Shown: piece by piece, positions 1-23,096 of the stretch
How the letters are laid out: each line of letters begins with the position of its first letter
How positions within the stretch are numbered: position 1 is the stretch's first letter
Assembly: GCA_900299305.1 (NCBI GenBank)
Contig: OMJJ01000275.1
Span: 1 to 38,201, forward strand
DNA length: 38,201 nucleotides
Direction: 5' to 3'
From: a bacterium
Lineage (GTDB): Bacteria > Armatimonadota > Chthonomonadetes > Chthonomonadales > Chthonomonadaceae
Program-made: the position numbers and the translations under genes
Notes under the pieces: generated by a model
The model's input: the letters and a program-made list of their open reading frames with translations, nothing else
What the model was told of the DNA's origin: nothing
Database searches by the model: none

Positions 1-117
1 AAGGGCAAGGCGGCATCAGGCACGGCGCAGCAGATTGAGGAGCGGTTTGCAGCAGCGCGTGCGCGGTGGCCATCGCCGCCTGTGCAGGGGGAGCTGGGGC
101 TGCCGATCCTCATCCGA
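1..117 (+). other. GC-rich foreign-looking end segment, possible partial coding sequence
   Basis: The first ~117 bases are about 70% GC by eye, clearly above the following DNA. Frame 1 of the plus strand is open and protein-like (Lys-Gly-Lys, then an Ile-Glu-Glu-Arg helix and a Leu-Pro-Ile-Leu-Ile-Arg end). It stops making sense where the sequence becomes the antisense of actB. I do not recognise the encoded fragment. It may be the tail of a gene from another locus or organism joined here by rearrangement or by assembly error. No inverted repeat or target duplication is visible at the joint. Confidence 0.4.
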
Positions 118-3100
118 TGGCAGACTTGGGGTCGTTCATGTCGCCGAAGGAGATGGATTTTGTGGGACACGCCTGCTGGCACGCGGTCACGACATCGCCA
201 TCTTTAATGGGTCTGCCCTCTTTTTTGGCTTCGATACGTGCCGCGCTAATGCGCTGTACGCAGTAGGTACATTTTTCCATAACTCCCCTAGAGCGCATGG
301 TTACGTTGGGGTTTCTTGCCAACGTAAGAACGGTGTAGGGTTCTTCCGTGCGGTCTGTGTAGTTTAGGAAGTTGAAGCGGCGCACTTTGTAGGGGCAGTT
401 GTTAGAACAGTATTTGGTTCCTACACAGCGGTTATATATCATCTGGTTCAGACCGTCGTGGCTATGCACGGTGGCGGCGACGGGGCAGACGGGTTCGCAG
501 GGCGCGAGTTCGCACATCTGACACGCCATCGGCTGGAAGTAGGTCTGTGGGTTATCGAGGCTACCTTTGTAGTAGCGATCCATACGAATCCAGTGCATTT
601 CGCGTCCGCGCATCACGAGGTCTTTTCCGACTACAGCGATGTTGTTTTCGGATTGGCACGCGATGGTACAGGTGTTACAGCCAGTACAGGTATTGAGGTC
701 GATAACCATAGCCCAAGCATTGTAGTCTTTGTAGTCGTAGTCCATTCCGAAGTGTCCTGCCTCTTCGGAACCACCGACGACTTTGGGATACATCGAGATT
801 GGCTCTTCCTTCTTTTCGCCCTCTTTGTGCTCACCCTCTTTATGCTCTCCACCTTCACCTTCGGGTTCGCCATACTTACCCTTTTTGTACTCGTCGAGAG
901 TGGTTAGGCGGATAATATCGCGTCCAAACTGACTATCTATCTGTTTGCCGTTGGTGTCTGAGATGAGGTTGTGGTTTTCGGTGGTCGCGATTTGCCACGT
1001 TCCCCCTGCCCTACGAACGTTGCACCCAGTTTTAGACCAGAGCGCGTCGGAGGTACGGATTTGGTTGGCATCGAAACCTGCGCCGTCCCAACCGTTTACG
1101 GGCATAACTCCTTTACCACCTGATGCGATTGCACCGCCTTGCGTGCGTCCATAACCGAGGTGAACCGTAACGGAGTGGTCGGCATGACCGAAGGCGATGA
1201 GTGTTGCACCTTTTACGCGGCGGTTGCCTACCTCTACCTCTACAATATCGTCGTTCGAGACGTTGAGGGCTTGCGCGGTGCGAACGCTCATAAGTACTGC
1301 GTTGTCCCACGTAATTTTGGTATTTGGCTTGGGCAGCTCTTGCATCCAGCCGTTATTCGCAAAGCGTCCATCCCAGATAGTGGGGTCGGGCGCAAACACG
1401 ACTTCGATATTGTCTTTGCTTCCCTCGGTAACGGGGGTGAGGCTAATTCCCGTAGCGAAATCGGTTTTGAGCATGACGGTAATGGGTGCTTCCGCCGTTC
1501 CGGGTAGAAGTCCGTCGTTTAGGAACTTGCGCCATGCTTTATCGAAGTTAGAGAGGTTTAGGCGAGCCTTCCAATAGGTGCGAACTGCCTCTTCACTGGT
1601 TGCGGGTCTGCCGATAAGCGCGGATAGCACTTCTAGCGGGGACTTCGCGCCGTCGTAGAGAGGGTTGATAAGCGGTTGTACAATGGAGATGGTTCCATCG
1701 TAGGCACGAGCATCACCCCAAGCCTCTAGGAAGTGGGTTTCGGGGATGTGCCATTCCGAGATGAAGCCCGTCTCATCGCGGTGCAAGCCTACGTGCGCCG
1801 AGAAGGCTACATTGGAGAGGTTTGCGCCGAACTGTAGGTCGATGGGGGCATGGTAGGCGGGATTTGCGCCGAGTGCCAGCAGAAACTCTACTTTACCACC
1901 TTGAATATCGGCGGTAAGAGTACGGAGGTCTTCTACCTGTTGGCGCGGCTGTACCTCTATGGGGTTGGTGTAGACAACGGTACTACCCACGGCGTTGAGT
2001 TGGACGTTTATCGCATGGACGAGGGCTTGGGTTGCGGGGCTGAGGTGTTCACCCGCGATTACTAGGGAGCGTCCTCGGTTCTCTTGCAGGTCGGCGACTA
2101 CTTCGTCAAGCCATGGGGCATTGACTGCGGGAGCGGTAATACCGGTCACACCGACTTTTGCCGCAACTGCCGCGGCAATCGCCTCCATGTCGCTTACTCT
2201 GGTCGGGAAGCGGTGGTCTGCCATTGCGCCCGTAAGTTTAGGAGTACACTCCACCGCATAGAGGCGGTTCATCTCTTTTTTCTCTTCGTCTACGCGCCGC
2301 TTGTCACTGAAGTCACGGCTAAAGCGGACACTAGCGGGGTGATTCGAGAAGAAGTCGCTGTCGAGGGAGAGGATACGATCTGCTTTGTCGAACTGGTAAA
2401 TCGTGTTGACGACCTGCCCAAACGCGATAAGAGAGCCTTGCCGCACGTTGTCTTGAGATACGGGGTCGTACTGCACCCACTGCGCTTTGGGGTAGAGCTT
2501 TAGAAACTCTTGTATCTTGGCATAGAGCGTGGGAGAGGTGACAGTTTCGGTGAGAATACGAATACCTGCACCCTCTTTGTCTTTCTGCTTGGCAAGAGCG
2601 GCTCTTGCGGCAGTTAGGAAGGCATCATAGGAGCTAGGTTGCCCTTTTCCGAACACGGTTTTCGAGCGGTCTGCATCGTAGAGGTTGAGTATCTCTGCTT
2701 GCATAAAGGCATCGGTAGAGCCGAGTACAGCGGGGTGTTCGGGGTTGCCCTCGATTTTGGTAGGTCGCCCCTCATGGCTCTCTACGATAATACCTCGCGC
2801 ATAGCCCTGAAAGAGCGAAGCGGAAGCGTAGTAGAGGGCTTTTCCCGGAATGGTGTTTTCGGGGGCTTTTACGTAGGGAACGATGCGGTCTTGGGGCAGG
2901 AAGCGGCAACCCGACAGCCCTGCGAGTGCAAGCGATGCCCCCGATAGTATCATAAACTGTCGGCGATCCATCTGCAAGCGCAGGGGGCGGGCGATTTGTG
3001 GAAACTCATCATCTAGGAACTGCTGAAACTCATCGGTTTCGGCGAGTTCTCCCAGACCGCGCCACATCTCTTGCCCTTTTTTGTTGGCAAGGCGTTCGCG

Positions 3101-3142
3101 TATCTGGTCGATATTGAGTTTTGTCTTCTGCGGATTCTCCAT
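110..3142 (-). CDS. actB: Alternative complex III subunit ActB (molybdopterin-like + 4Fe-4S protein), 3'-truncated
   Basis: This is the large iron-sulfur subunit of alternative complex III, a menaquinol oxidase that replaces cytochrome bc1. A twin-arginine motif (RRQFM, residues 60-64) precedes a hydrophobic stretch. A molybdopterin-oxidoreductase-like domain, which in this family carries no cofactor, fills the next ~700 residues. An acidic/lysine linker (EGEHKEG repeats, ~760-785) leads to a four-cluster ferredoxin-like domain from residue ~817 (CTGCNTC, CQMC, CVGTKYC, CTYC groups). I chose ATG at 3142 because AGGTG lies 9 bases upstream; a GTG at 3154 is in frame. The frame stops just after FGDMNDPKS. 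Family members normally continue for several tens of residues past this motif, so the true C-terminus appears to be missing at the junction near base 117. It follows actA by 48 bases. Confidence 0.93.
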   Translation of the reverse strand: MENPQKTKLNIDQIRERLANKKGQEMWRGLGELAETDEFQQFLDDEFPQIARPLRLQMDRRQFMILSGASLALAGLSGCRFLPQDRIVPYVKAPENTIPGKALYYASASLFQGYARGIIVESHEGRPTKIEGNPEHPAVLGSTDAFMQAEILNLYDADRSKTVFGKGQPSSYDAFLTAARAALAKQKDKEGAGIRILTETVTSPTLYAKIQEFLKLYPKAQWVQYDPVSQDNVRQGSLIAFGQVVNTIYQFDKADRILSLDSDFFSNHPASVRFSRDFSDKRRVDEEKKEMNRLYAVECTPKLTGAMADHRFPTRVSDMEAIAAAVAAKVGVTGITAPAVNAPWLDEVVADLQENRGRSLVIAGEHLSPATQALVHAINVQLNAVGSTVVYTNPIEVQPRQQVEDLRTLTADIQGGKVEFLLALGANPAYHAPIDLQFGANLSNVAFSAHVGLHRDETGFISEWHIPETHFLEAWGDARAYDGTISIVQPLINPLYDGAKSPLEVLSALIGRPATSEEAVRTYWKARLNLSNFDKAWRKFLNDGLLPGTAEAPITVMLKTDFATGISLTPVTEGSKDNIEVVFAPDPTIWDGRFANNGWMQELPKPNTKITWDNAVLMSVRTAQALNVSNDDIVEVEVGNRRVKGATLIAFGHADHSVTVHLGYGRTQGGAIASGGKGVMPVNGWDGAGFDANQIRTSDALWSKTGCNVRRAGGTWQIATTENHNLISDTNGKQIDSQFGRDIIRLTTLDEYKKGKYGEPEGEGGEHKEGEHKEGEKKEEPISMYPKVVGGSEEAGHFGMDYDYKDYNAWAMVIDLNTCTGCNTCTIACQSENNIAVVGKDLVMRGREMHWIRMDRYYKGSLDNPQTYFQPMACQMCELAPCEPVCPVAATVHSHDGLNQMIYNRCVGTKYCSNNCPYKVRRFNFLNYTDRTEEPYTVLTLARNPNVTMRSRGVMEKCTYCVQRISAARIEAKKEGRPIKDGDVVTACQQACPTKSISFGDMNDPKSAIG

Positions 3143-3190
3143 AGTGTGCGGCACCTAAATCGTAGGACGTTGTACGGTGTTATTTTGCGT

Positions 3191-3925
3191 TTAGCGGTGG
3201 CATATCCAACAGTCTGCCAACTGCTTTTTCTTAATTCCAAACTTTTTGACGAGCGCTTCGCCTTTGGCGAGTTCTTCGGGACTACGGACGTGTTCGCCGC
3301 TGTTAAGAATGTCTCGCTCTTCGGGGGTAGCACTGGAATACTCGCGGTCTGTCCCCTTCTGCCCGATTTCATAGAGACTGAACACCTTGTCGGGGTCGTT
3401 CACATACTTTTCGGGGTTGCGGTGGCAGTTGAGACACCACACCATGAAGAAGGGCTTGCCTTTGAAGGCGAGTTGCATCTGCTGGACGGAGCCGTGACAG
3501 ATATTACAGTTTAGCCCGCGCTTAATGTGAATACTGTGGTTGAAGTAGACAAATTCGGGGACTTTGTTGACCTGCGCCCATTTGATGGGGGTATTGGTCT
3601 TGTAGCTCTGGCGCACGGGTTCCAGTAGCGGACTGTTTGTCCATATCTGCGAGTGGCAGGACATACAGGTCTCGGTAGCGGGAACGGTGGCGTGTGCCGA
3701 GTTCTCTACGTTCGAGTGGCAGTAGCGGCAATCTATCCCTAGTTCGCTTACGTGGTGTTCGTGGCTAAAAGGGACGGGTTGGTCGGCAACAATGCCCGCT
3801 TTGGTGTTGTAGGAAGCGCGACTAACTCCTGTACCGATAAGAAGGAGAATTAGAGGACCCGTCAACAGAAGGATGAGGCTTAATTTCGCGAGGACATTCG
3901 CCTTTGGATGAAAGACTTGAGCCAT
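3191..3925 (-). CDS. actA: Alternative complex III pentaheme cytochrome c subunit ActA
   Basis: The 244-residue protein has one N-terminal membrane anchor (residues ~12-35) and five CxxCH haem-binding motifs: CRYCH, CMSCH, CNICH, CLNCH and the C-terminal CWICH. Five haems with an N-terminal anchor is the ActA pattern, and actB directly follows. It should sit on the periplasmic side and receive electrons from quinol oxidation for transfer to an oxidase or soluble cytochrome. ATG at 3925 is preceded by GGAG at a spacing of 8. A sigma70-type promoter lies about 100 bases upstream at 4021-4050, so actA is probably the first gene of the operon. Confidence 0.93.
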   Translation of the reverse strand: MAQVFHPKANVLAKLSLILLLTGPLILLLIGTGVSRASYNTKAGIVADQPVPFSHEHHVSELGIDCRYCHSNVENSAHATVPATETCMSCHSQIWTNSPLLEPVRQSYKTNTPIKWAQVNKVPEFVYFNHSIHIKRGLNCNICHGSVQQMQLAFKGKPFFMVWCLNCHRNPEKYVNDPDKVFSLYEIGQKGTDREYSSATPEERDILNSGEHVRSPEELAKGEALVKKFGIKKKQLADCWICHR

Positions 3926-11876: not shown

Positions 11877-12452
11877 ATGCAGATTTCGCAATCGGCGACA
11901 GAGTTTTGGGAACGCTTGGCGCAGGTACGCCTCGTGGTGATGGATGTAGACGGGGTTATGACCGACGGAACCCTCACCTATGACGATACCAACAACGAGA
12001 TGAAGCGGTTTCACGTGATGGACGGGGTGGGAATTACCCTGCTTAGACTGTGCGGTATACCCGTTATCTGGATGTCTGGGCGCAAAAGCCATGCCGTTAC
12101 CAAACGCGCCCACGAACTCAAAGTCGTAAGGCTTTATGAAGCGGCGAGAGATAAGCGCGTGATGCTGGCAGAGGTGTGCCGCGACTTTGAACTTGAGCCG
12201 AACGAACTCGCATTTGTTGCAGACGACCTAAACGACCTACTTTCATATCAAGCGGTTGGGGTACGCTTTGCCGTTGCGAACGCCGCTAACGAGGTAAAAG
12301 TGGTTGCCGATGCGGTAACGGAACGCTTTGGGGGTAACGGGGCAGTGCGTGAGGTGTGCGAGGCGGTTTTAGAGGCGAAGGGGCTACGCGAAAAGGCGAT
12401 AGAGCGGTATCTCACCATGCTCATCGAGGAGCAAGAGAGCGCGGGACAGTAA
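11877..12452 (+). CDS. kdsC: 3-deoxy-D-manno-octulosonate 8-phosphate phosphatase (KdsC-like HAD)
   Basis: The 191-residue HAD-IIIA protein matches KdsC, which releases phosphate from KDO-8-phosphate to make KDO for the lipid A core. Motif I is DVDGVMTDG (residues ~23-31), motif II the Ser of WMSGRKS, motif III the Lys of EAARDKR, and motif IV ADDLNDL, with the family-typical GGNGAVREV near the C-terminus. GGAGGAG lies 5-6 bases before ATG. A YrbI-like phosphatase of a related nonulosonate is the main alternative. It leads the tightly packed operon, 10 bases before the next gene. No kdsA, kdsB or kdsD is nearby. Confidence 0.85.
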   Translation: MQISQSATEFWERLAQVRLVVMDVDGVMTDGTLTYDDTNNEMKRFHVMDGVGITLLRLCGIPVIWMSGRKSHAVTKRAHELKVVRLYEAARDKRVMLAEVCRDFELEPNELAFVADDLNDLLSYQAVGVRFAVANAANEVKVVADAVTERFGGNGAVREVCEAVLEAKGLREKAIERYLTMLIEEQESAGQ

Positions 12453-12462
12453 AGGGCAAGCG

Positions 12463-13251
12463 GTGTTCACTATTTGGCATACCAACGATTTTCACAACCA
12501 CTTGACGGAGGCGCAGGCAGAACGCTTGCGCCATTTGCGTGAGTCGGTGGAGGGTGCGGGACTACTGGTCGATGCAGGGGATGCGGTGGCTTCGGGTAAT
12601 ATCACCTTCCGTTCGGGCGGTGAACTGATTCACGACCTTATGAACGGGGCAAAGTACGACGTGGGGGCGGTGGGGAACCGTGAGTTTCATTTCTCGCGTA
12701 TCGGATTTAAGTCCAAACTCTCCCGCGCCCACCATGTCAAAATCTGTGCTAATGTCCGCGCCATAAAAGCCCCCCTTCCCAACTGGGCAGAGAGTGACGA
12801 GAAAGAGATTTTCGGGAATGAGAACGCGGAACTACCCACCACTCCCTTCTGGATACACGAATCGCCTTCGGGTTGGAAGGTCGCTTTTGTGGGTCTTACG
12901 GTTCCCATGATAACCGAGCGGATGCTCTCTCGCAAGGTGTCGGCATACCTGTTTACCGACCCGATAAAGACCGCCCAAGAGGTGGTTCCCATGCTACAAG
13001 AGCGGTATCAACCAGATACTATCGTCGCTCTCACCCATATCGGACTATCGCGGGATAGGGTTTTGGCAGAGCGGGTTCCGGGAATTCACCTCATTATTGG
13101 GGGGCACTCGCACGACTGCCTAGAACACGGTGAGCGCGTGGGCAATACGCTGATTGTACAGACCGGATGCTACGGCAAGTTTGTAGGACGGGTACAGATA
13201 GAACGCGAAGGAGTGGGGCTTCGTATGGAAGCAGGATTAGAAGCACTATGA
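12463..13251 (+). CDS. 5'-nucleotidase/UshA-like metallophosphatase with altered catalytic motif
   Basis: The 262-residue protein is a calcineurin-like phosphoesterase close to the N-terminal domain of UshA-type 5'-nucleotidases. Metal motifs are TNDFHNH (residues 6-12), DAGDAV (~37), GNREF (~71), ALTHIG (~192) and GGHSHD (~213). In UshA the corresponding signature is GNHEFD; here the conserved His becomes Arg and the following Asp becomes His. No signal peptide and no C-terminal nucleotide-specificity domain are present, so it should act in the cytoplasm on an unknown phosphoester. A GTG start is supported by AAAGGG upstream. Its end overlaps the next gene by ATGA. Confidence 0.8.
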   Translation: MFTIWHTNDFHNHLTEAQAERLRHLRESVEGAGLLVDAGDAVASGNITFRSGGELIHDLMNGAKYDVGAVGNREFHFSRIGFKSKLSRAHHVKICANVRAIKAPLPNWAESDEKEIFGNENAELPTTPFWIHESPSGWKVAFVGLTVPMITERMLSRKVSAYLFTDPIKTAQEVVPMLQERYQPDTIVALTHIGLSRDRVLAERVPGIHLIIGGHSHDCLEHGERVGNTLIVQTGCYGKFVGRVQIEREGVGLRMEAGLEAL

Positions 13252-15254
13252 TAGCGGTTCTCTTGGCGATACTGGCTCTGTGGATAGCCTCCGGTTTTGG
13301 GCGTACCCTGCTCTCTCGTATCAAAGGTTGGGAACCCAACCCCGCGGAGCGTTTCGCCTATTCTGGTGCGTTGGGACTAGGGGTTGCCGCGTATGGGGTC
13401 TATCTCTTGGGGCTTTTGGGTCTGCTGGGTAAGGTGCAGATAGCCGTCTGGTGGCTAGTTCTGGGGGTGGTAGGCGCGAAGGGGATGCGCGAAAGCCTAT
13501 CAGATGCAGTAAGCGGGGTTCGTAACCTGCTTAAAACCGAGAACCGTAACGAAAAGATAGTAGGCATTACGATTTGGGTGGTGCTTATTCTGCTGGGTTT
13601 GGTAACGATGATTGCCGCCTTCCTCGCACCTACAGGGATGCAGTGGGACGCAGTAGCATACCACCTTGCCGACCCCAAACTGTTTTTACAGCAGGGCAGA
13701 GTTGGCACGCTCCCCACCGAACACCATAGCAACTTCCCCTTTATAATGGAGATGCTCTTTCTCACAGGGCTACTCTATGCCGATTTCCCTCTCGCAAACC
13801 TCTTCCACTTTCTTACCGAGATACTCACCTTTTCTGCTCTGCTTGGCTTTACCCGCAGACACCTCGTACCGCAAGTAGGCTGGATCGCCGCTCTGCTTTT
13901 TGCGACTACGCCGGTAGTCTTTTGGGAGGCGGGAGTCTCTTATATCGACATTGGTTTGGGGCTATACGTTGCGCTTAGTGCGTTTGCCGTAATCTCCGCC
14001 GTGCAAGAGACCTCTTCCGAAAAACAGCAACCCTGGATACTGCTCGCGGGGCTAACGATGGGCTTCGCGCTCGGTGTAAAGTACCTTGCGCTACTCCCCT
14101 TCTTGTGTGTGGGTGGGCTACTGCTTATCAAGCGAATCCCTCTAAAGCAGTTAGTGGTTTTTGCCGTCGTTGCGGGGCTTATCGCCTCCCCTTGGTACGC
14201 AAAAAACGCCGTCGTGATGAAGAACCCCGTCTATCCCTACCTCTACAAAGTCTTTACGCAGAGTAAGTACTGGAGCGCAGACAGGGGAGCCACCTACGAT
14301 TCGGAACAGCAGGGCTTTGGGTACTCGCATAGCCTGAAAAACCATTCTGAGACCCTACGCAACCTGCTAATGACCCCCTGGAACCTAATGGCAAACGCCG
14401 ACAAGTACTCCAATCGAGGAGAGTTTACATTTTTGGCTCTGTACGGAGGGCTTTGGGCAGGGTTTGCGTTTGCGTTCTTGGGGTTGCGGCGGGTTCCTTC
14501 TGCGGTTAAGATGGCGATGGGGCTAGGGTGTTTACAGGTGTTGGCGTGGTTCTTTGTGGCACAGGTCAGCCGCTACCTTATCTCCTTTTTGCCGCTCCTG
14601 GCTATCGGTTGTGCCTATACCGCCCACAGGCTTTGCGACACACCCTTAAAGCGTGGCATCGTTGCTTCTGTACTTGGGGGGCAGACCCTACTTCTTATGT
14701 TCAGCCTTGTTGCGATACCTACGAGCGGAAAGGCTGCCAATGAGTATGGGGTACTCCCTACCGTTCTTAACCTCCCTACCATGTTACAGAACCTGACCTC
14801 CGCCGAGGGTCAAGAGGCACGGCTACAACGCGAAATGGAGACCTATCCCGCGATTCAATATATCCACGCGCACAGCCGTCCCGAAGAGGGAGTTCTACTC
14901 TACGAGGAGACGCGGGGATTCTATCTCAACCGTCCATACCTGTGGGCAAACGGCGAACACTCTAGTTTTATTCCCTACGCAGATATGAAAGATGGCACCG
15001 ATTTTCTAAAATGGTGTCAGACTAACAAGATACGCTACGCGCTTATCAACATGAACTATTCGCCCCGTATCGGCGACCCCGAACTGCCGGAAGCACCGCG
15101 CCATCAAGAGGTGGAGGCTTTGCAAAAGTGGTATGTAGAGAAGTCGGGTAAGCCCGGCTCATGGCGGTATCTGCTAGGAGATGCGATAAAGCGAGGACTG
15201 CTACACTCTGCGTTTGCCGAACGCGGCGTAGTGGTGCTAGAGGTAGGAGGCTAG
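13248..15254 (+). CDS. GT-C fold integral membrane glycosyltransferase (large)
   Basis: The 668-residue protein has about a dozen membrane segments, beginning with the N-terminal LLAILALWIASGF. A first periplasmic loop with an acidic motif (PTGMQWDAVAYHLADP, residues ~126-141) resembles the catalytic Asp site of ArnT/PMT-type enzymes. A soluble C-terminal domain (~540-668) follows the last helix. Such enzymes move sugars from lipid carriers to lipids or proteins in the periplasm. ATG at 13248 overlaps the previous stop. Placement after kdsC suggests surface glycolipid work. Donor and acceptor are unknown. Confidence 0.75.
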   Translation: MIAVLLAILALWIASGFGRTLLSRIKGWEPNPAERFAYSGALGLGVAAYGVYLLGLLGLLGKVQIAVWWLVLGVVGAKGMRESLSDAVSGVRNLLKTENRNEKIVGITIWVVLILLGLVTMIAAFLAPTGMQWDAVAYHLADPKLFLQQGRVGTLPTEHHSNFPFIMEMLFLTGLLYADFPLANLFHFLTEILTFSALLGFTRRHLVPQVGWIAALLFATTPVVFWEAGVSYIDIGLGLYVALSAFAVISAVQETSSEKQQPWILLAGLTMGFALGVKYLALLPFLCVGGLLLIKRIPLKQLVVFAVVAGLIASPWYAKNAVVMKNPVYPYLYKVFTQSKYWSADRGATYDSEQQGFGYSHSLKNHSETLRNLLMTPWNLMANADKYSNRGEFTFLALYGGLWAGFAFAFLGLRRVPSAVKMAMGLGCLQVLAWFFVAQVSRYLISFLPLLAIGCAYTAHRLCDTPLKRGIVASVLGGQTLLLMFSLVAIPTSGKAANEYGVLPTVLNLPTMLQNLTSAEGQEARLQREMETYPAIQYIHAHSRPEEGVLLYEETRGFYLNRPYLWANGEHSSFIPYADMKDGTDFLKWCQTNKIRYALINMNYSPRIGDPELPEAPRHQEVEALQKWYVEKSGKPGSWRYLLGDAIKRGLLHSAFAERGVVVLEVGG

Positions 15255-15256
15255 TT

Positions 15257-16585
15257 GTGAGTAAAGACACCCCCAAAGAAGACCCGGCAGTGGCGGCGGG
15301 CGCACCGCTCTCTCCTCTCACTCCCGAGCCCACTCCATTAGAGGGGGCTTGGCGGTACGCGCTCTCTATTTTAATGGCTCTGTACCTCTGCTTTGCGAGT
15401 ATCCACGCGCTCACTACTCCCACTGGGCTTACAGGGCTACAGAACGCCCCCGACGAGGCGGCACACGTCTTCTATGCCAAAGAACTCCATGCGGGACGCT
15501 ACCCTACCCAACAGAGTGTAGGTAGCAATCCCCTAGGGTACGAATGGCATCAGCCGCCGCTCTACTACTTTGCTATAGCGCAACTGACTCCCCTCGGTGA
15601 AAAGCCCATGCGCTTTGTCTCGATAGGGTTAGGGCTACTGTCGTTATGGCTAATTTTTCAAGTAGGGCGAAGACTTTTCCCTACCGACCCACTTATTCCT
15701 ACCATAGCGACAGGTTTTGCGGCACTGCTCCCGACTCATATCGCCATCACCTCTACCGTAAACAACGACGCACCCACCGAAGTACTCTTTAGTTGTGTAC
15801 TGCTGATACTCGTCACGTCGTTTCGAGGAGGGTTCACGGCTAACCGCGCCCTCTATTTGGGGCTTGCGGTAGGCTTGGCACTGCTGGTAAAAGCGACGGC
15901 TCTCTTGCTGATACTCATTACTCTGTTCGCCCTCGTTCTTCTCAAAAAGAATGGACAAGAGACCCGCCAACTGCTCTCTTACGCGCTTCTCTCTATGGGA
16001 GTGGTGCTAATACTATCCGGGTGGTGGTTTGTACGCAACGGAATGCTTTACGGAGAGGTACTGCCGCTTCAGTCGTTTAAGCGTGCCTTCGCAGGAACGG
16101 CAAAAGCCTCTGACTTCGTGCAGGGAATGGGTTGGGGCGGCTACCTGAGTTGGGTGGGACAGTGGACATTCCAAAGTTTCTTTGCGGTGTTCGGAACCCC
16201 CAAGTCCGCAGAAAAAGGCGGCATCCCTATCTTCCTTCCCACACCGATATATGGTATCTTTGCAGTGTGGGTTTTGGCAGTGTTTGCAGGGATAACACGG
16301 CTCCACTTCAAACGCTACCAACTCTTCTCACTGCTACAGTTGCATGGGATATGGACGTTTTTGGCGACTATCGGGCTAGTGCTTGCCTCCTTTGTCTTTT
16401 TTATTTTGACCTATTTTCAAGCGCAAGGACGCTACCTCTACCCGGCTCTGCTCCCCATTTCGCTAATGACTACGTTGGGGTGGCTTGCCCTCTTTCCCGA
16501 AAAGAGCAAAAAGGCGGCAGGATTGGGGTGGCTCGTGTTTCTGGGATTGATAGCGGTACTCTACCTATTCATGGCAGTACCCTAA
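15257..16585 (+). CDS. GT-C/DUF2142-like integral membrane glycosyltransferase
   Basis: The 442-residue protein has about ten membrane segments. Its first outer loop bears NAPDEAAHVFYAKELHAG (residues ~60-77), close to the PDExAH motif of DUF2142 and GT39-type enzymes, where the acidic pair is catalytic. A further loop carries VNNDAPTEV. The start is GTG at 15257 with GGAGG six bases before it, two bases after the previous stop; a longer in-frame ATG at 15161 would overlap the previous gene by ~95 bases and lacks support. Together with its neighbour it forms a pair of polyprenyl-sugar-dependent transferases. Confidence 0.75.
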   Translation: MSKDTPKEDPAVAAGAPLSPLTPEPTPLEGAWRYALSILMALYLCFASIHALTTPTGLTGLQNAPDEAAHVFYAKELHAGRYPTQQSVGSNPLGYEWHQPPLYYFAIAQLTPLGEKPMRFVSIGLGLLSLWLIFQVGRRLFPTDPLIPTIATGFAALLPTHIAITSTVNNDAPTEVLFSCVLLILVTSFRGGFTANRALYLGLAVGLALLVKATALLLILITLFALVLLKKNGQETRQLLSYALLSMGVVLILSGWWFVRNGMLYGEVLPLQSFKRAFAGTAKASDFVQGMGWGGYLSWVGQWTFQSFFAVFGTPKSAEKGGIPIFLPTPIYGIFAVWVLAVFAGITRLHFKRYQLFSLLQLHGIWTFLATIGLVLASFVFFILTYFQAQGRYLYPALLPISLMTTLGWLALFPEKSKKAAGLGWLVFLGLIAVLYLFMAVP

Positions 16586-19766: not shown

Positions 19767-22700
19767 CTAGTTTCGTGCCGTCCGTGTACTCTCCACGCGC
19801 AGTAAAATGGGAGGCGCGGAGTTGCCAACTCCCCCTTCCACCTCACCCGTTACGTAGATGGAGCGCGTTTGCGGCTTTACCCAAGGCTCACAGTAGAGAG
19901 TAAACTTCCGCTTGGTCTCATCCTCCGTTATCAGTACCCCGTTCAAGCCCACATCGATGACCCGCACCCCAAACGGCAGATTACGCACATCCACCGGTAC
20001 GCGCTTTCCATACTTGCCTTTCCGTGAGACCGTTACCTCTATCGTCACCTCACCATTGGGGCGTATGCTTGCCTCTTGGTGGTCAGTGGTGACAGAGAGG
20101 TCGGGGTTGGGTAGCATGGTAAAGAGGGGGGTGCGTACAAATGAGGTGAGCGTCTTTACACGCTCTTTGCCGTCTATGTTCGCTTTGGTTACTAGCACAG
20201 TGGAGTCCGCACAGAGGTTGGTAGCGCGTTTTGCCATGTTCTGCGCCGCCGAGATAAGGATACGTGCACTAGTCTCACCGGGTTCGATGGTCGTTTCGGT
20301 AGCGGTGTAGCCTGTGGGTAGATTAAGCAGTTTCACCTCGATAGCCCCCTCGAAACCGTCGTAGCGTTCGCAGTCTACATTCACCACCGTTGCGCCCCCT
20401 TGAGGTACATTGGGATGGAACGGCGATAGGTAGACCTTATAGTCGGGGCGGGGGGTACGAAGCATAAGGCGATAAGGGTAGTCCTCTCCCTGTTGTCCCC
20501 GCGCATCAGTAAGGCGCACAATATAGTCATCATCGGCAGGAGGCGTAAATTCGAGGTAGGAGTCTTTGTCGTAGAGGGCGTTACCGTCGTCGTTTTGGCA
20601 GGTAAGGCGCGTTAGGGGGTAGCCGTTGGGTGAAAACTGACTGCCAGCAGGATGTACCTCTACCTTATACACCGAAGAGCCTACCGTATGGTACTCCGGT
20701 GTGGTTCCAAAGTAGCCTAGCCTACGCCCTCGAATACTGCGATACTGGAGGTCGTTGTCGGGACCTTCGGGGAGAGCCAGTATCCGTATCACCTCGCGCC
20801 CTACCATCATGTAGTCGCCGATATGGAAGTCGTCCCAGTTGATAAGCCGTAGCCCCGTACTAAACGAGTCGCGGTCATTCAGGGTGATTTCGGTCTGCCC
20901 AACGGCGCGAAGCACCACCTGCTCTATCGGCTTCCCGTTCTTATCTAGCACCTCAATCATGGAGTCGAGGGCGGAGCCTCTGCGCCGTGCCAGTGTCTCC
21001 AGCACGATTTTCTGCCCCTTCTTTGCGGAGAAACGGAAGTAGTGAGAGAGGGGTCGCCCTTTTGTACCGCTTTTACCATCCCAAAGTGTGCCGTTTATGG
21101 TAACAGGGAACGGAACGCTCTGCGCGTTTGAAAGGCTTTCGTTGCCCTGCTTTTGAAGTACTTCGGCTTCGTCTCCGAGTGCGAGTAGGTTGTCGCCAAA
21201 CACCTGCGCGGACTTGCCGTCCACTTGAGAGAGGGTGTAGAACTTATCTTCACTCTCTTTTGGGGGAGCCTGTATCTTTAGGGTGCGATTTGCCCCTAAA
21301 TTGAACCCTTCCAGATGGACTTCGGAGGTGGTTCCCTTTCCAACACCCAGCGGGAACGCCTTTGTAACAAAAGGGAAGTGCCCCGCGTTAATCCGATACG
21401 TCACGTCTCCCCCCGACTGGTTCTGGAAGTCTTTTACCCGCAAGTAGTAGGTTCCGTTTGCGGTAAAGCGGTAGCCCAGATAGGTGTCGGTTTTGCCAGC
21501 GCGGAGAGTGCTTTCGGTGAGTACTTTCTCTTGTACGTCCATGAGGGTTAGGACAGGTTTTAGGCGTGAGCGTAGGGGTTGCGCCATCACATCAAAAACT
21601 ATCTCCTCCCCTGCTTTCGCCTCAAATTTGTAGACATCGGTATCACCGGGCTTATCTATCGCGCCAATGAGGGTAGTTGGCAACGTGATGGGTTGTGCCG
21701 TTGGAAGGGTGTCGTTCGGCTCGCTTTGCATCACCTCTTGCCAGTCGCCAACGGCAAAGGTCAGGCTTCCTGTGGTTCCGTTGGGGGTCTGAATAAGGAG
21801 ACTATGGAGACCTACGCGCACCTGCGGGGTACTCGTCACATCTACTCTAAGTATCCCCTCATTGGGGTCGGGCGGGGTAACGATTTTGCCCGTAAGCCCC
21901 GTATCATCGAACCAAACGGCAGTGGCTCTGTTCAGTTTGTCCCCGAAAAAGGTGTAGCGCACCGTTTTACCGCGTTGCATTCCTGCCGGTGACATCGCAC
22001 CGAGCGACGCGGCGAAGAGGGTGGCTCCCCCAGTGGGCTTCTCTTTCAGTTCGTTACCCTGTTGGCAGTAAGGGCGGCGAGTACGAAGAGTAAGTGTACT
22101 CCCTTTAAGGGGTTCTGCAATGGGTGTCCCTGTAGCGGTGTTATAGAGTACTAGGGAACCGTTATGCCTCCCTACCGCCAACGCCTGCCCATTCATGCTG
22201 AGGGCTATGGCGTGAGGGGTGTCGGGTTGAGGTGGATAGACTCGTGCTTCGGACAGGGTGGGTGCGTTCCAACTCTTCACCGCCGAGTCCTCTCCGGTAG
22301 TGAGCAGGGTGTTACCGTCGGGAGTGTAGAGAACGCGGAGAATCGCGGCTTGGTGTGCGAAGGCGGATTTGGTTAGTCGTCCAGAGGTAGGTGTGAGGCT
22401 CCAAGTGCGTAGGGTTTTGTCTGCGCCCCCTGCGGCTATCTGCTTTCCATCGGGGCGAAACGCAACGCAAAACAGTTCCCCCGTAGATTCGCTGAGGGTG
22501 AAGAGGCGTTTTCCGCTCTCTGCATCCCAGATTTTGAGGGTTCTGTCTCCGGCTACCGAGGCAATACGGGTTCCATCGGGGCTATACGCAACTCCATACA
22601 CCGCGTCGGTATGGTCTTTAAGCATCTTGGGCGAGCCGCCCTGTGGGTTCCAAACCGATACGAGCCTATCGTAACTCCCCGCCGCAAGCCTCTGCCCATC

Positions 22701-23096
22701 GGGTCGAAACGCAACACTATAGATAACGTCCGCGTGTCCTGTTAGCGTTTTGAGGGGCTTGTTGGTAGCCATGCTCCACAGCCGAATCTCGCCAAACTTA
22801 CCCGGAGAGCCTCCTGCTACTGCAAGTACCTTTCCATCCGCACGAAATGCAAGTGACGTTACTGCCCCCGCGTGTCCGCTAAGGAGAGCAAGTTGCTTGC
22901 CAGTTTTGGCATCCAAAAGGAGAACTGTTCGGAGGGTTCCTACGGCAAGTCGGCTCCCGTCTGGGCTAAAAGCGAGCGCAGTAACGGGAGTCGTGAGCAG
23001 GGTGGGCGCAGGGTTTAGAGGGAGAGAAGAGGCGGTAAACCGCCCCCCAAAGAGCAGGGCAAAGCCTACAAGAAGCGCAGAGAGATGCTTTTGCAT
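19767..23096 (-). CDS. Exported WD40-repeat protein with PPC-type domains
   Basis: The 1109-residue protein starts with a signal peptide (HLSALLVGFALLFGGRFTASS). Residues ~35-330 hold about seven WD40 blades, seen as repeated AFSPDG/AFRPDG and IRLW/SVWN/KIWD ends. A linker with an IPT/TIG-like fold precedes a bacterial pre-peptidase C-type domain (QSEPNDTLPTAQPI to YYLRVKDF, ~450-560). A second PPC-like block (~650-870, with NDDGNALYDKDSYLEF) and a C-terminal beta-rich region (to EVEGGVGNSAPP) follow. No catalytic domain is seen. WD40+PPC giants are common in Planctomycetes-like genomes, with unknown roles. The gene is 43 bases after the BY-kinase-like gene, so may share its transcript. Confidence 0.85.
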   Translation of the reverse strand: MQKHLSALLVGFALLFGGRFTASSLPLNPAPTLLTTPVTALAFSPDGSRLAVGTLRTVLLLDAKTGKQLALLSGHAGAVTSLAFRADGKVLAVAGGSPGKFGEIRLWSMATNKPLKTLTGHADVIYSVAFRPDGQRLAAGSYDRLVSVWNPQGGSPKMLKDHTDAVYGVAYSPDGTRIASVAGDRTLKIWDAESGKRLFTLSESTGELFCVAFRPDGKQIAAGGADKTLRTWSLTPTSGRLTKSAFAHQAAILRVLYTPDGNTLLTTGEDSAVKSWNAPTLSEARVYPPQPDTPHAIALSMNGQALAVGRHNGSLVLYNTATGTPIAEPLKGSTLTLRTRRPYCQQGNELKEKPTGGATLFAASLGAMSPAGMQRGKTVRYTFFGDKLNRATAVWFDDTGLTGKIVTPPDPNEGILRVDVTSTPQVRVGLHSLLIQTPNGTTGSLTFAVGDWQEVMQSEPNDTLPTAQPITLPTTLIGAIDKPGDTDVYKFEAKAGEEIVFDVMAQPLRSRLKPVLTLMDVQEKVLTESTLRAGKTDTYLGYRFTANGTYYLRVKDFQNQSGGDVTYRINAGHFPFVTKAFPLGVGKGTTSEVHLEGFNLGANRTLKIQAPPKESEDKFYTLSQVDGKSAQVFGDNLLALGDEAEVLQKQGNESLSNAQSVPFPVTINGTLWDGKSGTKGRPLSHYFRFSAKKGQKIVLETLARRRGSALDSMIEVLDKNGKPIEQVVLRAVGQTEITLNDRDSFSTGLRLINWDDFHIGDYMMVGREVIRILALPEGPDNDLQYRSIRGRRLGYFGTTPEYHTVGSSVYKVEVHPAGSQFSPNGYPLTRLTCQNDDGNALYDKDSYLEFTPPADDDYIVRLTDARGQQGEDYPYRLMLRTPRPDYKVYLSPFHPNVPQGGATVVNVDCERYDGFEGAIEVKLLNLPTGYTATETTIEPGETSARILISAAQNMAKRATNLCADSTVLVTKANIDGKERVKTLTSFVRTPLFTMLPNPDLSVTTDHQEASIRPNGEVTIEVTVSRKGKYGKRVPVDVRNLPFGVRVIDVGLNGVLITEDETKRKFTLYCEPWVKPQTRSIYVTGEVEGGVGNSAPPILLRVESTRTARN

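Follow-up and report, generated by a model that had tools for sequence, protein, structure and literature searches.

For the UDP-2,3-diacylglucosamine (UDP-DAGn) hydrolase step of lipid A synthesis at least three solutions are known, namely LpxH, LpxI and LpxG. LpxH acts on the cytoplasmic side, where it converts UDP-DAGn into UMP and lipid X, and active sites of the UshA type cleave UDP-sugars into UMP and sugar-1-phosphate; NCBIfam likewise names UshA a UDP-sugar hydrolase. The nucleoside is held by the C-terminal domain of UshA, and the catalytic dyad, which we take to be His117 and Asp120, is part of the GNHEFD motif. According to passages of PMC5016852, a change of this His to Arg occurs only in LpxH, whose Arg80 forms a bidentate salt bridge to the phosphate of lipid X, and a more distant relative, PaLpxH2, is described there as without concrete evidence of activity. 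We read GNRD at this site in three LpxH chains of the PDB. LpxG was found by complementation as the UDP-DAGn hydrolase of Chlamydia (passages of PMC4807358), and the four core LPS genes are described in Armatimonadetes in the excerpted text of PMC5007114.

The window (the whole stretch of DNA analysed, 38,201 nucleotides) carries a short metallophosphatase gene whose motifs and nearest neighbours are these:

11877..12452, forward strand: gene for a KdsC-type Kdo-8-phosphate phosphatase, directly upstream of the metallophosphatase gene (TIGR01670, 139.2 bits, cut-off 106.95)
12463..13251, forward strand: gene for a single-domain UshA-like metallophosphatase of 262 aa (open reading frame with GTG start; PF00149; AlphaFold model)
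12484..12495, forward strand: NDFH metal motif (D9, H11; from alignments)
12574..12585, forward strand: AGDA metal motif (D40), with a clade-specific GN after it (residues 45-46)
12673..12690, forward strand: GNREFH, with N72 a metal ligand and R73 and H76 replacing the His/Asp dyad; conserved in the clade
12901..12924, forward strand: VPMITERM, residues 147-154, a segment specific to the clade (from specificity positions)
13030..13044, forward strand: LTHIG metal motif (H192; from alignments)
13099..13113, forward strand: GGHSH metal motif (H215, H217; from alignments)
13248..15254, forward strand: gene for a PMT-type (GT-C) glycosyltransferase (PF02366 above cut-off)
15161..16585, forward strand: gene for a second, PMT_2-type glycosyltransferase (PF13231 above cut-off), which recurs in relatives

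The start given for the first PMT gene is a chosen ATG, the mechanical open reading frame beginning at 13167, and this likely start at 13248 overlaps the stop of the metallophosphatase gene. The upstream KdsC-type protein lies under the cut-off of the KdsC equivalog model NF007019 (133.8 of 208). Elsewhere in the window, the minus strand encodes a large 4Fe-4S protein and, next to it, a multihaem protein of the cytochrome c7 type (110-3925), a pair that is possibly part of an alternative complex III, and a 1109-aa protein with WD40 repeats is encoded at 19767-23096.

The original prediction held that GNREFH stands where GNHEFD is expected, at the dyad position of the UshA type, and that the other metal motifs are intact. 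Residues 71-76 of the open reading frame 12463-13251 do read GNREFH (GGGAACCGTGAGTTTCAT, 12673-12690, forward strand), and in our alignments R73 and H76 lie opposite the His and Asp of GNHEFD; the ligands D9, H11, D40, N72, H192, H215 and H217 are all kept in the window protein. The His-Asp dyad of the UshA type is absent from it, and no dyad shifted to another place was seen in the alignments of the short proteins. An alignment of homologues, the check suggested at the time, places GNREFH in a conserved clade: all 60 short copies read (52 from our 61-genome sample and eight further loci) keep the Arg, and three residues beyond it 58 of them have His and two have Phe. Invariance of the Arg across 60 relatives argues for more than chance or sequencing error, and a pseudogene or a sequencing error is ruled out by it. 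The accompanying idea of a different chemistry is plausible, LpxH being active with Arg at this site in passages of PMC5016852; its alternative, binding of nucleotides without cutting, fared less well, as set out below.

The fold class of the protein is established. PF00149 matches residues 2-218 above its cut-off and is the sole domain found. An AlphaFold2 model of the window protein (pLDDT 94.3, pTM 0.93) has YunD as its top structural match (9a7h_A, an integrative model; Z 29.5). In E. coli UshA (1ho5_A) it is the N-terminal domain that matches, at Z 28.0 and with an rmsd of 2.4 across 238 residues; CD73 matches at Z up to 27.1 and SoxB at Z up to 26.7. Matches of our profile A1 include UshA (E 2e-30) and venom 5'-nucleotidase (E 1e-31), and among NCBIfam models the protein is nearest the UshA/YfkN/SoxB group, always far under the cut-offs (47 bits against 600 for the UshA model). 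Model confidence is lowest in an insert near residues 99-128, whose length varies among relatives, and no lipid-binding cap resembling that of LpxH was identified in the short protein. The C-terminal substrate-binding domain of UshA is absent from the 262 residues, and no signal peptide was seen. Since residue 2 already opens the first strand and the 19-residue hydropathy peaks at 0.89, the protein should remain in the cell, and it is probably cytoplasmic. The window protein has the UshA fold and, without the dyad and the second domain, is not a UshA-type nucleotidase. Nor is it a member of the LpxH lineage, though it may act in a similar way: no LpxH chain appeared among the profile A1 matches up to E 1, and TIGR01854 was absent from the NCBIfam matches up to E 1, where HMMER filters drop weak matches. 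LpxH was also absent from the best 50 structural matches of either fold comparison, which we do not count against a likeness.

To place the motif in its clade, we used 61 genomes, a sample of relatives that includes the window's own genome and is not the whole phylum. Some match to the window protein is present in 56 of them and a short member in 52; the nine genomes without the short gene are G009, G027, G028, G030, G034, G039, G048, G053 and G055, of which G048 has a long GNHEFD protein only. Short relatives are 37-79% identical to the window protein in a 29-row alignment that left out the truncated L003. Two loci, L008 and L023, read GNRDFH. Two others, L189 and L190, read GNREFF, with the Arg kept and the second residue Phe, which makes the Arg the invariant part of the motif. 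Nine long UshA-type proteins from the same genomes read GNHEFD (five), GNHEFS, GNHEYS, GNHDFN and GNNEFK; among four extra matches fetched, one of 347 aa (G035) reads GNHEFE and three gave no usable reading, and second copies are possible among them.

Beyond this sample, contigs from the genomes of 84,980 species were scanned and the best 80 loci taken. Eight close loci (L033-L040) read GNRE; seven are titled Armatimonadota or Armatimonadetes, Chthonomonadaceae or Fimbriimonadaceae, one is titled 'bacterium' only, and some may be the same species as genomes in the sample. The other 72 comprise 63 with GNH or GNN, none with GNR, and nine without a usable reading. The short Arg clade thus appears, from sequence, in Armatimonadota alone so far, a confinement that rests on the ranking of these 80 loci. 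In a tree of 102 rows (L003, L006, L039 and L186 left out, motif columns retained), the 56 short rows form one side of a branch with an SH-aLRT of 95. Rows from families f2, f3, f4, f5, f6, f14, f16 and f17 cluster together, and the f1 rows are resolved only in part. Compared with 37 outgroup rows (32 with His, five with Asn; L006 and L039, which both carry the motif, left out), the clade differs most at R73, H76, M149, K85, A41, N46, S160, G45, M154, V147 and T151, so that Lys85 and VPMITxxM are further signatures. Co-ordinated change of this kind suggests selection for a new substrate or a new chemistry.

The neighbourhood of the short gene is rich in LPS genes. The gene immediately upstream is a KdsC homologue at 23 of the 58 loci with enough flank, and the one immediately downstream is a PMT homologue at 35 of 57; both counts come from stop-to-stop frames, some of which overlap on paper. 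A set of 44 loci with wider flanks, 37 taken from the 52 genomes with the short gene and seven being named loci other than L034, was searched to 8 kb, several loci having less than 8 kb on a side and LptB being required to reach 40% identity to a reference. KdsC was found at 19 of these, KdsD at seven and LptB at seven; at least one of the three is present at 23, always on the same strand, and these same-strand neighbours recur across many families of the phylum. The remaining 21 loci, including those of the complete genome G005 and the window's congener G003, have no KdsC, KdsD or LptB nearby. The commonest neighbour in the 44 loci is a PMT glycosyltransferase; G043 and G056 instead have KdsC and LptB as the neighbours found. 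NCBIfam cut-offs are exceeded by KdsD in L134, L136 and L139 and by LptB in L141, L246, L250, L254, L255 and L260, and Pfam cut-offs by LptA- or LptC-type domains in L246, L250 and L260. The order of these genes in E. coli is kdsD-kdsC-lptC-lptA-lptB, and the pieces found around the short gene recall it.

Further observations concern the same flanks. The two PMT-type genes of the window (13248-16585) recur beside the short gene in many relatives. A DUF1385-type protein lies near it in L037, L038 and L040 (by Pfam) and in L245 (by blastp), with an ABC ATPase in L040 and L245; no KdsC was found near the short gene in these four loci.

Genes of the lipid A pathway are widely kept in the sample. 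LpxB is present in 59 of the 61 genomes and LpxD in 54 (49 above cut-off); no LpxD match was found in the window's own genome, though all three of its congeners did match. LpxI was found in none of the 61, the control search being positive in Caulobacter alone among 14 genomes. Almost no LpxH was found either: the model TIGR01854 exceeds its cut-off in none of the 61 genomes, with weaker matches in eight, seven of which read GNHD. These weak matches do not supply an LpxH for the window's genome, whose one match has GNHD, and they are not complementary to the short gene, which all eight genomes also carry. In the complete genome G005, the lipid A genes form a cluster lpxD-lpxC-fabZ-lpxA-lpxB with nothing else between lpxD and lpxB, LpxC, FabZ and LpxA being recognised by eye.

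The nine genomes without the short gene keep LpxB (9/9) and LpxD (8/9) and gave no LpxI and no LpxH match, which implies that something else is used there. A crude motif scan found no substitute metallophosphatase beside kdsC in the seven of the nine in which kdsC was found, and three scan matches in gene-less genomes have no GHxH and are taken as chance. YkuE-type proteins, which we take to be LpxG-like, occur in 58 of the 61 genomes, including all nine without the short gene. No YkuE match at 1e-15 was found in G044 or G049, where a more distant YkuE protein is possible; LpxD, LpxB and the short gene are all present in both G044 (93% complete, LpxD under cut-off) and G049 (99% complete), and G049 has 14 PF00149 matches.

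One genome, G016, also yielded a fragment of 106 residues at a contig edge (L115, G016:C188, 1-318). It matches true LpxH chains best (E 7e-15) and shares 40-44% identity with its enterobacterial matches (the five listed of 19). Its metallophosphatase motif falls off the contig. By its sequence, the fragment is a piece of a true LpxH; chimera, transfer and contamination are alike possible, the pilin-like gene on the same contig speaking somewhat against plain contamination. The two congeners of G016, G004 and G014, gave no LpxH match of this kind, and G016 carries the short gene too (L186). The fragment slightly lowers the odds that the short protein is a UDP-DAGn hydrolase, and likewise those of its being a fourth class of such enzyme.

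Taken together, the conserved Arg clade, the frequent LPS neighbours and the near absence of the usual enzymes of the lipid A step suggest that the short protein may perform this step. Our first-ranked reading, put forward tentatively, is that it could be an independently evolved UDP-DAGn hydrolase of the Armatimonadota LPS pathway. A metal site of the UshA type would then be applied to the LpxH substrate, giving lipid X and UMP from UDP-DAGn. By analogy with LpxH, a metal-bound hydroxide would attack the alpha-phosphate. The beta-phosphate of the lipid sugar would be held by Arg73, perhaps together with Lys85, which the clade conserves, and His76 would orient either Arg73 or the leaving group. 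The general-acid His of the UshA type would have been replaced by Arg, as in LpxH, and the UshA C-terminal domain would have gone. We infer an active two-metal hydrolase, and by the same reasoning this substrate and the roles suggested for Arg73, Lys85 and His76. We count for a UDP-DAGn hydrolase the Arg in 60 of 60 copies and their shared side of a tree branch (SH-aLRT 95), LPS neighbours at 23 of 44 loci, the retention of LpxD and LpxB, the negative searches for LpxI and for an LpxH above cut-off, the lack of a visible signal peptide, the report of the Arg switch for LpxH only (passages of PMC5016852), and the lpxD-lpxB interval of G005, which holds LpxC, FabZ and LpxA only. Against it stand the nine LpxB genomes without the short gene, the spread of YkuE-type proteins (58 of 61 genomes), the LpxH fragment in G016, the 21 of 44 loci without an LPS neighbour, PMT as the commonest neighbour and two negative findings, no LpxH-like cap having been identified in the protein and no LpxD match in the window's genome. 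The evidence speaks more strongly for a part in making LPS than for this particular substrate.

Ranked second, and a serious if tentative possibility, is a hydrolase of the LPS pathway acting on another substrate, such as a nucleotide-sugar or polyprenyl-linked intermediate for the adjacent PMT-type glycosyltransferases, which would decorate lipid A, Kdo or core while UDP-DAGn is cleaved by a YkuE/LpxG-type enzyme. With the PMT glycosyltransferase as the commonest neighbour, a role in decorating LPS with sugars must be taken seriously as an alternative: PMT lies directly downstream (35/57) more often than KdsC lies directly upstream (23/58), the window's PMT start overlaps the metallophosphatase stop, YkuE-type proteins are nearly everywhere in the sample (58/61), and nine LpxB genomes do without the short gene. 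However, many loci have no PMT neighbour, as in G043 and G056 with their KdsC and LptB, G044 and G049 gave no YkuE match at 1e-15, and passages of PMC5016852 report the Arg switch for LpxH only. It is improbable that we are dealing with a common small phosphatase or nucleotidase in which Arg and His are tolerated, with no special tie to LPS and a neighbourhood reflecting ancestral gene order only. The families it matches best are nucleotidases (UshA, YfkN, CD73), but all 60 copies read have the Arg together with further clade-specific positions, and LPS genes on the same strand lie near it again and again in many Armatimonadota families. Very improbable is a pseudo-enzyme to which nucleotides or nucleotide-sugars bind without being cleaved, the other half of the original prediction and one without support here, for although the usual general-acid residue is replaced in all members read, every metal ligand is kept, LpxH is active with Arg at the same site (passages of PMC5016852), and the second UshA domain is missing.

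Were the short protein a UDP-DAGn hydrolase, it would fill a gap in the LPS pathway for most of a phylum and offer a clean convergent active-site change, testable by a known complementation assay. If not, it would remain a conserved hydrolase that is linked to LPS and has a rare active site, and of which our searches found no description; annotation would probably name it a nucleotidase. No paper with GNREFH was found in the open-access literature, and none naming an LpxH substitute in Armatimonadota was found in open-access titles, abstract starts and passages.

Set against known systems, the short protein shares fold, metal motifs and sequence with the N-terminal domain of UshA, CD73, YfkN and SoxB, yet it has no C-terminal domain and no visible signal peptide, and in place of the GNHEFD of the UshA group its clade has GNR[ED]x[HF] with its own VPMITxxM and Lys85. 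YunD shares the fold of the catalytic domain. In eight Firmicutes rows that we take for YunD-like, the His is also absent (GNNEGI), but it is replaced by Asn rather than Arg, and these proteins are long (open frames of 465-500 aa) against the 262 aa of the short protein; their hosts are presumably without LPS. LpxG and YkuE-type proteins belong, like the short protein, to the metallophosphatase superfamily; unlike it, they have a GNHD motif and a predicted transmembrane helix, as described in passages of PMC4807358. LpxH comes from a different metallophosphatase branch, and yet it places an Arg directly after the metal-binding Asn (GNRD), as the short protein does (GNRE), in genomes that carry lipid A genes. 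More guardedly than the substrate itself, we suggest that the short protein might represent a fourth class of UDP-DAGn hydrolase, a one-domain enzyme of the UshA branch that reached an LpxH-like His-to-Arg switch independently.
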